Positions 11,450-18,224 of a stretch of 34,038 nt of DNA are shown here, one piece after another. Every line of letters starts with the position of its first letter. Positions within the stretch are counted from its first letter, which is position 1. The stretch comes from Prosthecobacter sp. (GTDB taxonomy: Bacteria; Verrucomicrobiota; Verrucomicrobiia; Verrucomicrobiales; Verrucomicrobiaceae), in the NCBI RefSeq assembly GCF_029946185.1, contig NZ_JAQSEA010000165.1:1-34038 (forward strand), given 5' to 3'. A program made the position numbers and the translations under genes. Under the pieces are notes generated by a model, which was given only the letters and a program-made list of their open reading frames with translations, did not search any database and was not told where the DNA came from.

Positions 11450-14400
11450 TCAGGGTGCGACCGCGCCGGGTGATCTGCGGCGGCGGGCTGCGAGGGTGGC
11501 GAGGGCGAGGAAGAGCAGGATGGTGCGGGAGGGTTCGGGGACGGGGGCGATGAGGAGGATGCCGGTGGTGTAGATCTGGCTGAGGTCCCATTGGAGGGTG
11601 ATGTCGAGCGTGGGGAGATCAAAGGCGGCGAAGGTGCCGGTGACGGGTACGCTGAGGTTCGTCCAATCAAAGAGCTTCCATTGATCATTGGATGTGAAGC
11701 CGGTGAGGCTATTGGGGTTGGAGACTTTGAGGGTCGTGCCGGTGCCGAGGGTGAAGGTGCCGGTGACGGCGAGGATGTCGGCGGCGCTGGGATTGAGGGT
11801 GTTGTTTTGGCCGACGCCTGAAAAGAGGTCGAGGACGAGGGTGGAATTTTGATCGAGACTGAGGGTGCCGGTGCCGGAGGTGACGAGCTGCAGGATGCCT
11901 GCGCTGGTGGCGGAAGGGATGCCGACGCTGAGTGTGCCACCAACGATGGTGATGGATTTGTCTGCGGCGGCGGCGATGCGGCCGTTTCCGCCCAGGGTGG
12001 CACCTGCAGAGACGGCCACTGCGCCGGTGCCGGTGGCGGAGCCGGTCATGGTGGAGTTTCCGACGAGCAGAGTGCCGGCGGTTACGGTGGTACCGCCGCT
12101 GTAGGTGCTGTCGCCGGTGATGATCCAAGTGCCAGTGCCGGCTTTTTCGAGTTTCACGCCGGGGGCGGTGGGAGAGGAGGTGGCATTTCCCATGCCGACG
12201 ATGGAGTTGTCGCCGGTGTTGGTTCCGCCCAAGGTGAGGGTGCGCTGGGCGGTGTTGGCGCCGCTGGTGGTGAAGGCGGTGGTGAACTTGACGGTGCCGG
12301 TGCCGGTGTTCTCGATGGTGCCGTTGACGAAGGTGGTGTTGGTGACGGAGCCATTGGCGGCGAGATTGACCACGCGGTTGGTGACCGAATCGGTGCTGCC
12401 GGTGTAGCGCAGCGTGGCTGAGATGGTGCTGCCAGTGACCGATGCGACCCCGGCCGCCAGATCGATGATGGAGTTTGCGGCGTCAAAGTCGCCGGTGCCC
12501 AAGGAGCTTGCAAAGCCGGTGTTGGCGAGCTTTTGAACTTCGAGGAAGTCCTTGTTGATGGTGGTCTTTCCCGCATAGGTGTTGACGGAGCCTAGCTGGA
12601 GGGTGCCGTCATAGAGGGTGAGGGTGAGGTTGTTTTCATACGTGCCGCCGCCGCCAATGATGCCATTGCGAAAGTCACGCACGACACCGGGTTTGTGATT
12701 GGTGAAGCCTGACAAGGTGGAGGAGCCGCCCACGACTGAGTTGGTGGTGCCGGTGCCTTCGATGCTGAGGGCACCGAAAAGATTGACGGCGGAGGTGCCG
12801 CTGCCGATGACGAGCTTTGCGCTGGTGGTGCCCGAGCCCAGGATAAAGTCGATGATGGAGTAAACCGGATAAAGAAGCGTGGTGCCTCCAGCAAGGGTGG
12901 AGACGTACTGCAGAGCTCCTTCTTGAATGCGTGTTGCGCCCGAGTAGTAGGCGCTCGGGAAGTTGCCCTGATTGTAAATGTTACCGGACTCCATGATGAC
13001 GGTGCCGAGTCCGGCTTTGACAATGGTGGTGGCGACAGGGGTTGCTGCGGCGTTGTTGGTGATTTTGGAGCTGATGCGGAGGGCACCCAAGGTATTGTTT
13101 TGGATGATGACGAGCTCGGTATCACCGGATGGAGTCCGCAGAGCGCCGACGGAGATGAGCACGTCATTGGCTCCCACACCGGGTGTGACAAGGATGCCGC
13201 TGGTCGTGAGGTATTTGGTGCCGTTGGTCGTGTCTGAGAGTGTCGTGAGTCCGCCGGTGTTGGTGTTGAAGCGGAGGGTGGTCACCGTGGTGTCCGCGCT
13301 GATGCTGGTGCTGGCGGTTACGTCTGCATTGCCGCTGAGGCTGGCGGTGGTGTAGCCGCCGGTAATGGTGGACAGGCCGACAATGTTTTTAGAGGCGTTG
13401 GCCGTGGCGGTGGCGGCCCAGTCATTCAGGCCCACGGTGGCGTAGGGCACGAGGCCGGAGGTGAGCAGGGTATCCGTGGTGCCGGTGGTGGTGGTGAAGC
13501 CTGCGAGTGCGGTGCTGTCAAACTGCACAATGGCGTATGCGGGGCGGGTGATGGTGGTGAAGTTCACTTTGACGCTGGTGGCCGCGTTTTGATCGACCGA
13601 CAGGGTGTACTTGCCGGCCGTGGTGAAGGTCAAAGTGGTGAAGGCCTGGCTGTTGACGGTCGCCGTCTTGCCGGTGACGCGGAGGGATGAGCCATTGCTC
13701 ATGGAGAGGGCACCAATGGTGCCGGTGCCGGTATAAAGGATGTTGGTGGCGGGCGCGGCCAAACCGCTGAAGTTTAGCCTGAGCGCTCCATTGGTGACGG
13801 TGGTGATGCCACCATTGGTCATGCTGGTGCTGAGGGTGAGTGTGCCGGACCCATCCTTGAACAGGATGGGCGTGGTGCCGGTGATGGTGCCGGTGATTTC
13901 CGTGTTTCCAGCGCCGGAGAAATACAGGGCGATGCTGGTGGTCTGGGCGACAATGCCGCCGCTCAGAGTCAGAAGTCCTGTGTCCGATGCGATGCGTGTG
14001 GAGGACTGGGCGCGGATGACGCCGCTGATGATGTTGCCGTCGCTCAGGCTGCGGATTGAGCCGTCAAGGGCGATGCCGTGGCCATTGGTCTGAATGCCCT
14101 CCGCCAGCGTGATGCCGCCAGAAATATTGAGCGAGGCACCGATCATGATTTTGGTAAGGCTGGCCGTGGGGGCTGCCACACCTAGCGCTGTATTGTTACG
14201 CACTTCCAGGACGCCGCTGTTGACGATGACGTGGCCCGAGAAGTCGTTGGCTCCGGTGAGGATCGTGCGGCCGGTGCCATTGAGGATCAAAGTCGTGGCC
14301 CCGGTACCGTTGTTCCTGATAAGCGAGTTGATGATCAGACTGCCGGTGGAGGAGAGATTGGTGAGGTAGAGCTCGCCTGCCACATTGTTGGTTGTGCCGC

Positions 14401-16066
14401 CCGCCATTAGAATACTGGTGTCTCCGAGCGTGCCGACTGTGAATTCTTGTGCGCCTTTGATCATCTGGATGCCGCCCAACGTGGCCAATCGCAGTGTATT
14501 CCCACTGCCGATGTCGAGGATGCGGGTGCTGCTGGCATCCGTCATGGAAACGGTGGCGATGTTGGTGGTGCCGGAAGCGGTGACTGCTCCGGTGGAGGTG
14601 GCGGAGACGCGCAGGTTGGCGGTGGCGGCATAGCCTGGCAGCACGCCAATGGCTGTGCCCGTCACGTGGTCGAGGTTGCCGGTGTAGAGAGAGACTTTAC
14701 CGCCGACGAGGGAGGCCCAACTGGCATTGACTCCATCTCCTGCGATGTAGGTGGCCCAAGGGCCGAGGAACGTGTCAGACAATCCGCCATAGGTGGCGGT
14801 GATGCTGCCGCTGGCTGGCCCTTTGATCGAAAGAGAGGTGAAGGCAGAGCGGGTGATCGCGCCGAGATTGAGATTGGCGGTGCCGCTGACATCCGAAATG
14901 ACTTCCACTCCGGTACTGCCCTGCTGCAGGGTGAGCCCGGAAAAGGTCTGGCTGTTGGTCTCGCCCACGGCGCCGATCATTTTCAAGGTGGTCGCGGAGG
15001 CTGTGCCACCAACGAGGACCAGCGTGTTGGCCGTGACGCCGTTGTAGAAGATGTTGTTGTCCGGGGCCGTGGCGGAGGCGAAATTTAACACATTCACGCC
15101 CCCTTCACCCGTGTCGCTGGTGCTGAGCAAAGCCGTCAAAGTACCAAAGGTGGTGGTGCCGGTGTAGTTGCTGGCACCGGAGTAGGTCATTGTCACTGGA
15201 ACAATGGAATTGGCTGCCACCGTAGCGCTGCGAGTGAAATTTTTGCTGCCTCCAGCCGTCTCGGTGATGGCGGAGGTGATGGCTGTGGACACCACATTGA
15301 CGCTGGTGTGAAACCGCATGTTGCCGCTGAGGGTGATGGTGCCGGTGAAGGTATTGCCGGTACTGTCCACGCGAATGGCCGGGGAGGTGCCTGCTGCGGT
15401 GATGGGTGTGGAGAAGATGGCGTTGGTCACGCTGATATAAGCCGTGGACCCGGCTTCCACGACGATGCCCGACAGGCCGGTGATGCTCGCCGGCCTGAGG
15501 ACGGCGAAGACGCCACCTCCTGCGGCGGAGCTTTTGAGGGTGAGCGTTCCCGTCAAATTGGGATTGGCGGCCGCCAGGTCAAAGAAGGCTGCCAGGGTGC
15601 CATCTGCCTTGGCAATTGTCAGGTTGCTGCCGATGAGAGGCACGTTAAACCGCACATAGTTGCCGCTGCTGTTGGTGGCGTTGGTAGAGATATTGATGGT
15701 GGCCCCGCTGCCAAGATTGACTGAACCGGTGCCCGAGAATTGAAAGGGGGCTCCGCTGAGCGTGCCACTCAGGGGCAGAAAATTGAAGCCGGCAACGCTG
15801 ATGGCTTCGTTGACGGTGATGGTGGCACCGAGGGTGGAGTTCAGAGAACCAAACTGGGCAATCGCGGTCGGGTCCCAGGGCTGGTTTGACGCGCCATTGT
15901 ACCAATTGTTGTTCGTGTTAAGGTTTGTCCACGTTCCGGCCACGTTGTCGATTACTCCGAGGGTGCCGGGAGTGCCGTCCCAAGTGAGGAGTGTGGGCTC
16001 GGCCTCAGCGGAAATGCTGAGGCAAAAATAAAAGAGCGCGAGCAAGAGGCAAAAAGGATGACGCAT
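11450..16066 (-). CDS. PEP-CTERM protein with autotransporter-type beta-strand repeats
   Basis: A 1538-residue secreted protein. A signal peptide (about 1-21, ending near ISAEA) is followed by a very long Gly/Thr/Ser/Asn-rich region. Its irregular repeats are of the form GTGTWIITGDSTYSGGTTVTAGTLLVG, as in the autotransporter-associated beta-strand repeat family, and predict a beta-helix. The C terminus is a PEP-CTERM sorting signal: VPEP (PEP at 1510-1512), a hydrophobic stretch TILLFLALATLAA and an RRRR cluster. This implies processing by an exosortase encoded elsewhere and export to the outer membrane or matrix. There is no autotransporter barrel, so it is a sorted cargo protein. No frameshift was noticed. 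It converges with the amidase gene. Confidence 0.9.
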   Translation of the reverse strand: MRHPFCLLLALFYFCLSISAEAEPTLLTWDGTPGTLGVIDNVAGTWTNLNTNNNWYNGASNQPWDPTAIAQFGSLNSTLGATITVNEAISVAGFNFLPLSGTLSGAPFQFSGTGSVNLGSGATINISTNATNSSGNYVRFNVPLIGSNLTIAKADGTLAAFFDLAAANPNLTGTLTLKSSAAGGGVFAVLRPASITGLSGIVVEAGSTAYISVTNAIFSTPITAAGTSPAIRVDSTGNTFTGTITLSGNMRFHTSVNVVSTAITSAITETAGGSKNFTRSATVAANSIVPVTMTYSGASNYTGTTTFGTLTALLSTSDTGEGGVNVLNFASATAPDNNIFYNGVTANTLVLVGGTASATTLKMIGAVGETNSQTFSGLTLQQGSTGVEVISDVSGTANLNLGAITRSAFTSLSIKGPASGSITATYGGLSDTFLGPWATYIAGDGVNASWASLVGGKVSLYTGNLDHVTGTAIGVLPGYAATANLRVSATSTGAVTASGTTNIATVSMTDASSTRILDIGSGNTLRLATLGGIQMIKGAQEFTVGTLGDTSILMAGGTTNNVAGELYLTNLSSTGSLIINSLIRNNGTGATTLILNGTGRTILTGANDFSGHVIVNSGVLEVRNNTALGVAAPTASLTKIMIGASLNISGGITLAEGIQTNGHGIALDGSIRSLSDGNIISGVIRAQSSTRIASDTGLLTLSGGIVAQTTSIALYFSGAGNTEITGTITGTTPILFKDGSGTLTLSTSMTNGGITTVTNGALRLNFSGLAAPATNILYTGTGTIGALSMSNGSSLRVTGKTATVNSQAFTTLTFTTAGKYTLSVDQNAATSVKVNFTTITRPAYAIVQFDSTALAGFTTTTGTTDTLLTSGLVPYATVGLNDWAATATANASKNIVGLSTITGGYTTASLSGNADVTASTSISADTTVTTLRFNTNTGGLTTLSDTTNGTKYLTTSGILVTPGVGANDVLISVGALRTPSGDTELVIIQNNTLGALRISSKITNNAAATPVATTIVKAGLGTVIMESGNIYNQGNFPSAYYSGATRIQEGALQYVSTLAGGTTLLYPVYSIIDFILGSGTTSAKLVIGSGTSAVNLFGALSIEGTGTTNSVVGGSSTLSGFTNHKPGVVRDFRNGIIGGGGTYENNLTLTLYDGTLQLGSVNTYAGKTTINKDFLEVQKLANTGFASSLGTGDFDAANSIIDLAAGVASVTGSTISATLRYTGSTDSVTNRVVNLAANGSVTNTTFVNGTIENTGTGTVKFTTAFTTSGANTAQRTLTLGGTNTGDNSIVGMGNATSSPTAPGVKLEKAGTGTWIITGDSTYSGGTTVTAGTLLVGNSTMTGSATGTGAVAVSAGATLGGNGRIAAAADKSITIVGGTLSVGIPSATSAGILQLVTSGTGTLSLDQNSTLVLDLFSGVGQNNTLNPSAADILAVTGTFTLGTGTTLKVSNPNSLTGFTSNDQWKLFDWTNLSVPVTGTFAAFDLPTLDITLQWDLSQIYTTGILLIAPVPEPSRTILLFLALATLAARRRRSPGAVAP

Positions 16067-16379
16067 GGAGAAATGGGGGACTGTTGCTGCTCCAAGCAGA
16101 AAACCAGCCCATGCGCGGCCTGTGAGCCCTACTGGGCATAATAATACTATGATGAGGCACCATCGATTTCATCGTGATCAGCTCGGGTCCTCAGTCGCTG
16201 ATTTATTCCGCAGGTCTCCTTATGCGGTGTCACTTTGAAACAAGAACCTAGGTTAATTCGTTGGAGCCAACGGAATCAAGTTGATCGTGAGGGGCTGCGT
16301 TTGATCAGCTGATGCGAAGCTGCAAGGGGCTGGGGCATTCAGAGGGAGAGTATTTCTGGTGATGTTTGGAAGCGCGAGA
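16067..16379. other. Spacer upstream of the PEP-CTERM gene
   Basis: About 310 bases without a supportable gene. It is less GC-rich than the flanks and should contain the minus-strand promoter of the PEP-CTERM gene, but no convincing boxes were identified. It ends at the target duplication of the MITE-like element. Confidence 0.5.
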
Positions 16380-16687
16380 GGCTTGTCATGAATGGCACTT
16401 GATTAAGGCTGGGCGTCGAGAAAAGCATCCATTCACTAACGAAGCCGAAAAGTGTCACGGAGCGCGGGACTTTAGTCCGCAGCAAGTCGTCCGCGTGGGA
16501 CGTGTGATGGCTCATACTGAATGTCGCAAACACGGTGATGTCGGGTGTCGCGAAATCAGCATGTCAAAGCGGGGCAGGTGTGTGCTGCGGAGTGCAGCGG
16601 AATAAATTCCGCGCTCCTCGGAGCGCTGCGCGAAAACAGTGAGTTTCACGATCTACGCCCTTAATCAAGTGCCATTCAGGCTTGTCA
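16380..16687. mobile_element. MITE-like element, 290 bp, with 20-bp terminal inverted repeats and 9-bp target duplication
   Basis: The element spans 16389-16678. Its left end, TGAATGGCACTTGATTAAGG (16389-16408), is the exact reverse complement of its right end (16659-16678). Similarity between the ends continues imperfectly for about 10 more bases. It is flanked directly by GGCTTGTCA at 16380-16388 and again at 16679-16687, a perfect 9-bp target-site duplication. The interior holds no credible gene but several palindromes: GGACT/AGTCC (16467-16478), GCGGAAT/ATTCCGC (16597-16612) and GCGCTCC/GGAGCGC (16611-16626). This is the signature of a non-autonomous transposon mobilised in trans. A 9-bp duplication fits several IS families (for example IS1 and parts of IS4 and IS5), so the parent family is undecided. 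Confidence 0.88.
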
Positions 16688-17497
16688 TTTTATTGCGCAA
16701 GTTTCAACAAGGGCGTAAATCACCGGGTCTTGTCCGCCTCACACGCCATTCCCGTCTCGAACGCACGCTACGCACTGTATGTGCTTGTGCTGTGCGTGTT
16801 TGCTTCGGCGGCATTTTATGGAGTGTTTGCCGCAGTGGAGTATCCGTGGAACTGGAGCGGGGTGTGGCAGTATCGGCAGCAGTTTGTTTATGGCTGGCTG
16901 AGTACGATGGGGCTTTCGCTGGTGGCGATGATCGTGAGCATTGTTTTTGGCTTTTTGTTGATGCTGGGGCGGCGTGCACCGTGGATGCCGGTGCGGATGG
17001 GCTGCGGGAGTGTGGTTGAGGTGGTGCGCGGATCGCCGCTGCTGGTGCAGCTGCTGATTGGGCACTACATCATTGCGCAGGCACTGAACATTGATCAGCC
17101 GCTCTTCACCGGGATCATTTTACTGGGCTGCTTTGAAGGGGCGTATCTGGCTGAAATTTTTCGGGGTGCGGTGGAGAGCATCAGTGCCTCACAGCTTGAG
17201 GCGGCGCGGGCGGTTGGATTTAGCAAGGCGCAAACGTATCGGTTTGTGATCATACCGCAGGCGCTGCGAAGGGCGCTGCCGGGTACGACGGGCCAGCTGG
17301 TTTCGCTGATCAAAGATTCTTCGCTGCTTTCGGTCATCGGCATTGAGGAGCTGGTGCAAAAGGTCAAGATCATGAACGCTGCGAACTTTGCTCCTTTGGA
17401 GGGCTATCTGCCGCTGGCGCTAGCGTACCTCGCGGTGACACTGCCGCTCTCACATCTGGCGCGTCGTTTGGAAGGGAGGTTTGCGTATGAAACTTGA
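16682..17497 (+). CDS. Amino-acid ABC transporter permease (HisM/GlnP type)
   Basis: Inner-membrane permease of a polar amino-acid uptake system. The open frame gives 271 residues with about five hydrophobic helices (about 30-52, 70-95, 112-134, 140-160, 243-258). The cytoplasmic EAA loop reads QLEAARAVGFSKAQTYRFVIIPQ (171-193), where the ATPase docks. The frame as drawn begins with TTG at 16682, inside the right target duplication of the MITE, so the first 15-25 residues are doubtful. A later start such as TTG 16730, just before ASHAIPVSNARYALYVL, fits the family better. It overlaps the ATPase gene by 11 bases. No substrate-binding protein gene lies beside it, so the transported amino acid cannot be named. 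Confidence 0.9.
   Translation: MSFYCASFNKGVNHRVLSASHAIPVSNARYALYVLVLCVFASAAFYGVFAAVEYPWNWSGVWQYRQQFVYGWLSTMGLSLVAMIVSIVFGFLLMLGRRAPWMPVRMGCGSVVEVVRGSPLLVQLLIGHYIIAQALNIDQPLFTGIILLGCFEGAYLAEIFRGAVESISASQLEAARAVGFSKAQTYRFVIIPQALRRALPGTTGQLVSLIKDSSLLSVIGIEELVQKVKIMNAANFAPLEGYLPLALAYLAVTLPLSHLARRLEGRFAYET
17474..17479 (+). promoter_or_regulatory. Ribosome binding site that fixes the ATPase start
   Basis: GGGAGG lies seven bases before ATG 17487, making that codon the start rather than the in-frame TTG at 17481. It is one of the few clear Shine-Dalgarno sequences in the window and lies within the end of the permease gene. Confidence 0.7.
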
Positions 17498-18224
17498 AAC
17501 GCATGCGGTGACGAAGCGCTATGGAGCACACGCAGCACTGGACGGGGCCTCTTTTACCACGGGTGATGAGGCGCGTGTGATCGCGCTGCTGGGGCCTTCG
17601 GGTGGTGGCAAGTCCACGCTGCTGCGGGTGCTGGGCAGCCTGCTGGTGCCGGATGAAGGGCATGTGAGCATCGACGCGAGCATGCTGCCGCATGATGAAG
17701 ACGGGGCTTTGAATGAGCGGCGTGGCAATGGCTTTGTGTTTCAGGGCTACAATCTTTTCCCCCACCTCACGGCATTGCAAAACATCACGCTGCCGTTGCG
17801 GGAAGTGCATGGGATGAGCGAAACGCTGGCAACGCAGCGTGCGCTGGAGCTGCTGCATCGTTTGGGGCTGGCAGGGCATGAGAACAAACGGCCGAGCCAG
17901 CTTTCGGGAGGGCAGCAGCAGCGTGCTGCCATCGCGAGGGCTCTGGCGCCGAAACCACGGCTGCTGCTGCTGGACGAGCCGACTTCCGCGCTGGATCCGG
18001 TGATGACGGGAGAGGTGCTGGATGTGGTCCGAGAACTGGCTGAGGCTGGGCAGAGTATCATTCTAGCCACGCATGAAATTAGCTTTGCGCGCAAGGTGGC
18101 GGACTGGGTGGTGTTCCTGGCGGCAGGGAAGGTGGAGGAGTCGTCCTCTGCCGCTGATTTTTTCACGCGGCCGCAAACCGATCTCGCACGGCAGTATCTC
18201 GAAGGATTGTCGAGGTATCGGTAA
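17487..18224 (+). CDS. Amino-acid ABC transporter ATP-binding protein (GlnQ/HisP type)
   Basis: ATPase subunit that powers the permease encoded just upstream. The 245 residues carry the complete nucleotide-binding motifs in order: Walker A GPSGGGKST (about 33-41), a Q-loop in FVFQGYNLFPHLT, the ABC signature LSGGQQQRAAIARAL, Walker B LLLLDEPTSALDP and the H-loop THEISFA. The FQxxNLFPHLT form and overall length fit the polar amino-acid family. The start is ATG 17487, preceded by GGGAGG. It overlaps the permease gene by 11 bases, so the two are translationally coupled. A substrate-binding protein must be encoded elsewhere, or has been separated from this pair. Confidence 0.95.
   Translation: MKLETHAVTKRYGAHAALDGASFTTGDEARVIALLGPSGGGKSTLLRVLGSLLVPDEGHVSIDASMLPHDEDGALNERRGNGFVFQGYNLFPHLTALQNITLPLREVHGMSETLATQRALELLHRLGLAGHENKRPSQLSGGQQQRAAIARALAPKPRLLLLDEPTSALDPVMTGEVLDVVRELAEAGQSIILATHEISFARKVADWVVFLAAGKVEESSSAADFFTRPQTDLARQYLEGLSRYR

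Follow-up and report, generated by a model that had tools for sequence, protein, structure and literature searches.

RESULTS

An intergenic element with inverted ends and an 11-bp target duplication

The window, by which we mean the whole 34,038-nucleotide stretch of Prosthecobacter DNA analyzed here, is contig C165 of an assembly of 6.19 Mb in 317 contigs that is 95.9% complete. The element under study sits between divergent genes, with a 1,538-aa autotransporter-like ORF carrying a PATR repeat on its left (11450-16066, minus strand) and an ABC transporter permease and ATPase on its right (~16697-18224, plus strand). No ORF in our list of those of at least 80 aa lies inside the element, and one begins at position 16639 in the right arm and continues into the neighboring gene. 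Within 16689-16760, the conserved block of the downstream ABC permease begins only about 20 bp past the right-hand copy of the target duplication, without an obvious ATG start codon in the window. The parts of the element are listed in Table 1.

Table 1. Features of the element and its flanks, in window coordinates
Feature	Position	Strand	Remarks
Left target duplication copy, AGGCTTGTCAT	16379..16389	.	Repeat search; flank comparison of 47 elements
Left terminal inverted repeat, 19 bp, GAATGGCACTTGATTAAGG	16390..16408	+	Similar ends on IS4-family insertion sequences
Left subterminal stretch	16409..16423	+	TCG at 16416-16418, where insertion-sequence left ends have TCGT
REPIN-like core, 159-bp hairpin-forming repeat	16459..16617	.	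Two inverted palindromic units
First REP-like unit, GGAGCGCGGGACTTTAGTCCGCAGCA	16459..16484	+	
Second REP-like unit, inverted	16594..16617	-	GCAGCGGAATAAATTCCGCGCTCC on the plus strand
Right subterminal stretch	16644..16658	-	Also left-end type; ATCGTGAAA read inward
Right terminal inverted repeat, 19 bp	16659..16677	-	
Right target duplication copy, 11 bp	16678..16688	.	

The sequence TGAATGGCACTTGATTAAGG at 16389-16408 recurs as an exact inverted copy at 16659-16678, and GGCTTGTCA flanks both ends as a direct repeat, precisely as reported in the original prediction, which had taken these signals for a 290-bp miniature inverted-repeat transposable element (MITE) with 20-bp ends and a 9-bp target duplication. 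If mismatches are allowed, the inverted repeat can be followed for 35 bp, with 80% identity. A shuffle test that covered the 34-kb window and arms 60 to 3,000 bp across returned a single pair of 14-bp perfect inverted arms flush with a perfect 9-bp direct repeat, compared with none in 50 mononucleotide shuffles. The assignment as a MITE stood, but the 9-bp duplication was abandoned, given that a flank comparison of 47 elements (43 MITE-sized or shorter, together with four insertion sequences) fits 11 bp. Measured from the GAATGG boundary, the mean identity between left and right flanks was 0.77 at 11 bp and did not exceed 0.33 at 7 to 10, 12, or 13 bp. A perfect 11-mer duplication was present in 11 of the 47 elements, and in the subset with at least eight of the nine inner bases equal, the outermost target bases agreed in 17/19 and 19/19 elements. 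The first T and the last A of the 20-bp repeat are therefore part of the target, and the element itself comprises 288 bp (16390-16677) with perfect 19-bp inverted ends. The repeat search likewise gave a direct repeat of 11 bp at 100% identity. Base counts over the nine inner positions in 43 elements, plus the outer positions, indicated a preferred target close to ATGCCWGGCAT, which is approximately palindromic.

At seven distinct places, of which two belong to Ghiorsea by sequence, a pair of outward-facing ends abuts on a single shared target copy, as scored on the ends. The usual outermost target base and the first eight end bases of the genus elements, read together as TGAATGGCA, resemble the inner target TGCCWGGCA, and this likeness of sequence may favor back-to-back insertions that share one target copy.

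Dispersed copies and a near-empty site

A search of the host's own genome with the 290-bp query returned 51 matches, eight of which were full length, including the window copy. Their identities were 100 (window), 92, 91, 91, 90, 89, 86, and 86%, with a ninth match starting at position 20, and several of the full-length copies have intact or almost intact duplications. The search for further ends that had been proposed for the host genome yielded 55 occurrences of the 20-bp end at up to three mismatches, compared with none for a reversed-pattern control. With the end pattern TGAATGGCACTYGRTTAAGG at up to two mismatches, 68 occurrences were found in the own genome. Counting this one, 13 of 37 genomes contained the pattern, and all 13 belong to the genus. 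A search that covered the own genome and 55 relatives and scored up to 13 candidates in each gave full-length matches to the MITE in the own genome only, with just ends or cores elsewhere. The element is thus short, has inverted ends, a target duplication, and dispersed copies, lacks a transposase gene, and shares its ends with an autonomous element (see below), which are the properties by which MITEs are recognized.

Two further kinds of element carry similar ends. A 120-bp palindromic mini-element at G000:C282:4818-4937 (L125) has the same ends and consists of two MITE right arms, with ten terminal-repeat matches lying within about 4 kb of that contig. In the Ghiorsea MAG JAUZSH, elements of about 286 bp at L265:4997-5282 and L270:1299-1583 have related ends, CGAATGGCACTAAGTTAAGC, and an 11-bp duplication that is perfect in L265. 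The interior of the Ghiorsea elements matches none of the cores described below, and they may be a separate MITE with ends of this family in a different phylum.

The gene downstream of the element was matched in 44 other genomes, and among the 29 of these compared as loci, only G028 also aligns upstream. The element is absent from the syntenic site in G028, where a single target-like 11-mer, ATGTTTGTCAT, was found. The expected empty site in a relative was recovered in part: the single 11-mer agrees with it, but only 9 of 11 bases equal those of the window duplication, and G028 lacks about 57 bp that precede this duplication in the window (16321-16378). G028 is also a different species rather than a sister strain, and its site counts as near-empty, not clean.

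Insertion sequences with the same ends fit the IS4 subgroup

The proposal that full-length insertion sequences with these ends and a transposase should exist was borne out within the genus. A PF01609 search of 48 genus genomes led to full-length insertion sequences between such ends in G030 (1,623 bp), G026 (1,624 bp), G060 (1,610 bp), and G064 (1,542 bp), flanked by 11-bp duplications that are perfect in G026, G060, and G064 and match at 10 of 11 positions in G030. Similar ends were seen in G009 and G024, with flanks that do not match. The three transposases tested against NCBIfam match NF033592 (IS4 family) with 208.5, 188.8, and 206.8 bits at a cutoff of 115, and the two tested against Pfam match PF01609. 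An alignment of all four transposases revealed a conserved catalytic motif, Y-(2)-R-(3)-E-(6)-K, which reads YYRRWSIELF[YF]RD[VI]K in G030, G026, and G060 and YRQRWQVELYFDDIK in G064. According to Table 1 of PMC2266710, the IS4 subgroup has ends of the form -AATR--------WTW----, a length of 1,400 to 1,650 bp, the YREK motif, and duplications of 10 to 13 bp. The four insertion sequences all agree with that table in ends, length, motif, and duplication range, so that by these sequence traits the parent fits an insertion sequence of the IS4 subgroup within the IS4 family. Escherichia coli IS4, the type of the subgroup, has related ends, TAATGCCGATCAGTTAAGG, whereas its transposase InsG, the sole reference protein, is only 23 to 25% identical to the three parent transposases compared with it.

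Matches to the transposase profile of the parents, often fragmentary, occurred in 19 of the 48 genus genomes. Among named sequences, those nearest to the transposase come from Verrucomicrobiaceae and Verrucomicrobia genomes assembled from metagenomes, with more distant ones in other phyla. The host's own assembly contained no match to the IS4-type profile at E values up to 1e-10; as far as the assembly shows, the MITE is therefore an orphan, and its supplier of transposase appears to have been lost from the host or to be missing from the assembly. Candidates for a parent closer to home did not hold. The only PF01609 match in the own genome was a weak one on C126, and its surroundings (L131 and L176) contained no terminal repeat at up to five mismatches. 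The strong end matches in G012 sit at contig ends, with the interior outside the assembled contigs, and no transposase-like ORF was recognized alongside a 69-bp match at 80% on contig C9 of the same genome.

With sibling copies, transposase-bearing insertion sequences that have such ends, and one relative without the element, the idea of a transposed, non-autonomous element was upheld. That the insertion is fairly recent, as was also proposed, is weakly indicated: an intact duplication speaks for it, but the sibling copy closest in sequence is 92% identical and no such transposase was found in the assembly.

Most sampled MITEs have two left-type ends

The two ends of the parent insertion sequences can be told apart. 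Left ends begin with TTAAGG followed by TCGT about seven bases further inward, whereas right ends begin with TTAAGC followed by a different sequence that runs into the end of the coding sequence. We scored 41 MITEs, which are the 43 sampled paired elements minus the two from Ghiorsea, with a left-end score that was trained on just six left and six right ends and applied to copies that are not independent within one family. By this score, 38 of the 41 were left-left, and in the remaining three one end scored between -2.8 and -5.6, compared with -28 to -46 for real right ends. As judged from sequence, then, most sampled MITEs have on both sides an end like the parent's left one.

The core is a REPIN-like repeat that also occurs alone

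The original prediction had noted an interior without a transposase but with several palindromes. Both observations are correct, and the palindromes are parts of a repeat that can be found by itself as well. This core consists of two inverted units, GGAGCGCGG...CCGC, that form a hairpin; the fold of 16459-16621 gave a z of -3.74, and the whole element as single-stranded DNA folds better than shuffles, with a z of -5.70. No match to the element was found in Rfam at E values up to 1. In 26 of 38 stretches (36 fetched for a match to the core or core unit and two for end matches), the core or its unit occurred without any terminal-repeat-like sequence at up to five mismatches of 18, some of these stretches ending at contig ends. 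An alignment with 12 other copies showed that similarity ends sharply at the core borders. The core unit was present in 19 of the 48 genus genomes, often as inverted pairs with unit starts about 135 to 138 bp apart and sometimes more, and had 44 matches in the own genome at up to one mismatch, MITE-borne copies included. Units far outnumbered end matches in G008 (5 versus 0), G022 (7 versus 0), and G005 (28 versus 1). Like a REPIN, the window core is thus an inverted pair of palindromes that forms a hairpin and has many dispersed copies. Four tandem window-type cores with a period of about 202 bp lie at G000:C135:1-1000 (L188), without terminal repeats and preceded by short direct repeats.

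Pieces of a second, unrelated core adjoin some RAYT-type genes

When the 43 paired elements were grouped by interior, 24 carried a second core type and nine the window type, so that 33 of 43 had one or the other of these unrelated cores; three further interiors accounted for two, two, and one elements, and five matched none. These 43 are the elements in loci returned by the earlier searches and not a census, and the core queries came from the same set, so that self-matches are counted. They include three short elements of 120, 144, and 164 bp, and the 120-bp one was assigned to the window core type (type A) on a 21-bp match only.

A 316-bp MITE with the second core had at least 130 matches in 11 of 56 genomes, 19 of which extend to one end of the query and 111 of which do not. 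Among 20 second-type stretches chosen by hand as core-only matches, nine had a terminal-repeat-like stretch nearby and 11 did not, compared with a chance expectation of about 0.13 per locus, suggesting that MITEs with decayed ends probably account for some of the free second-type copies.

RAYT-type genes (PF01797) had 480 matches in 47 of the 48 genus genomes. We examined 50 of these, namely, the best 30 and another 20 picked from five genomes. Pieces of the second core lay 114 to 362 bp from the gene in 11 of the 50 loci, compared with 1 of 29 and 0 of 30 control loci that were not genome matched (Fisher P = 0.001), and the matches span 24 to 65 bp of the core, which is its palindromic part and not the whole. 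The window core type was found at none of the 50 loci, 30 of which were also scanned by unit pattern, and RAYT genes were accordingly set aside, in this sample, as partners of the window core. A RAYT gene flanked by the same REP, as known from REPINs, was therefore seen for the second core and not for the window core.

DISCUSSION

Our analysis identifies the element, with high probability, as a 288-bp MITE that would be mobilized in trans by a DDE transposase of the IS4 subgroup and that is built from two inverted left ends around a REPIN-like hairpin repeat. The ends, the 11-bp duplications, the sharing of ends with insertion sequences, the left-type character of both ends, and the free occurrence of the core can each be read from the DNA itself. 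By analogy with the family, an IS4-type transposase from an autonomous copy that is now absent would most likely bind both ends, excise the element, and insert it elsewhere with an 11-bp stagger in a cut-and-paste reaction. The founding step is presumably one in which two inverted left ends came to flank a REPIN-like repeat, after which the whole moved as a unit; alternatively, the repeat may have entered an already existing left-left MITE later.

We considered that the element could instead have arisen by internal deletion, keeping a left and a right end of the insertion sequence, and have received a REPIN-like repeat in its interior afterward. MITEs are usually explained by internal deletion (PMC3189936), and the sharp core borders are what an insertion would leave. 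This origin is nevertheless unlikely, given that 38 of 41 MITEs are left-left and that the other three lie far from the scores of real right ends; moreover, no core-free MITE with the window arms was recognized among the own-genome matches, save the 120-bp element with two right arms on C282. It is somewhat less likely again that the core is the plain interior of a MITE family and that free copies are MITEs with decayed ends. Such decay would account for the nine of 20 second-type cores near a terminal-repeat-like stretch, a frequency above that expected by chance, but not readily for the 26 of 38 window-type stretches without a terminal repeat, the genomes with five, seven, and 28 units and hardly an end match (G008, G022, and G005), the loss of similarity at the core borders, or the second-type pieces that adjoin RAYT genes.

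Position and structure could also suggest a fixed regulatory or terminator segment, kept for its hairpins between the divergent autotransporter-like and ABC transporter genes, and the strong single-strand fold agrees with that role. A segment of this kind would not be expected in multiple copies with target duplications, to be absent from the syntenic site in G028, or to escape Rfam, and we consider it very improbable. As a MITE, the element may nonetheless influence the neighboring genes.

Beyond this locus, the MITEs of the genus could have been founded repeatedly when a REPIN-like repeat was caught between two left ends of an IS4-subgroup element. Such chimeras would be able to spread in two independent ways, through a DDE transposase that works on the outside and, for the commoner core at least, through RAYT-type processing on the inside. 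We advance this only tentatively. If repeated trapping did occur, the bias toward left-left pairs would suggest that the left end is the better substrate. The common view derives MITEs by internal deletion, whereas many of the MITEs sampled here are left-left around a separately dispersed hairpin repeat, for which at least two unrelated repeats have been used. The origin of bacterial MITEs thereby becomes testable within one genus, and the arrangement, in which one selfish repeat seems to be carried within a second one, suggests that a further vehicle is open to REP-type repeats. In Verrucomicrobiaceae genomes, such elements can be annotated by their 11-bp duplication together with ends that resemble GAATGGCACTNNNTTAAG and a target that approximates ATGCCWGGCAT.

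MITEs, IS4 elements, and REPINs are each already known; what is new is the placing of two left ends around a hairpin repeat. In the open-access literature that we surveyed, including passages of PMC3733652, PMC10969869, PMC2817692, PMC3116915, PMC2229807, PMC3189936, and PMC6382973, we found no left-left IS4 MITE with a REPIN core. Compared with the IS4 subgroup, the element differs in having no transposase, and the elements here differ in their palindromic preferred target. The bacterial MITEs RUP, Nezha, and ERIC, which are among those named in PMC3733652, are alike in their size of about 290 bp, inverted ends, duplication, several copies, and gene-free interior; here, the same end of the parent is echoed on either side, and the middle is a REPIN-like repeat that is dispersed separately. 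The REPINs, or REP doublets, of PMC3116915 share two inverted short palindromes with a spacer, a hairpin, and many dispersed copies, and pieces of the second core adjoin RAYT genes as REPINs do. Unlike REPINs, the repeat in our element is enclosed by the terminal repeats of a DDE-type insertion sequence, the window core had no adjoining RAYT gene in 50 loci, and the unit starts in many free pairs are about 135 to 138 bp apart, compared with 71 and 110 bp given there for Pseudomonas. A parallel to a second kind of repeat inside a MITE is the MITE reported from Porphyromonas gingivalis (PMC4596501), which holds a minisatellite, whereas the element described here holds a separately dispersed hairpin repeat.
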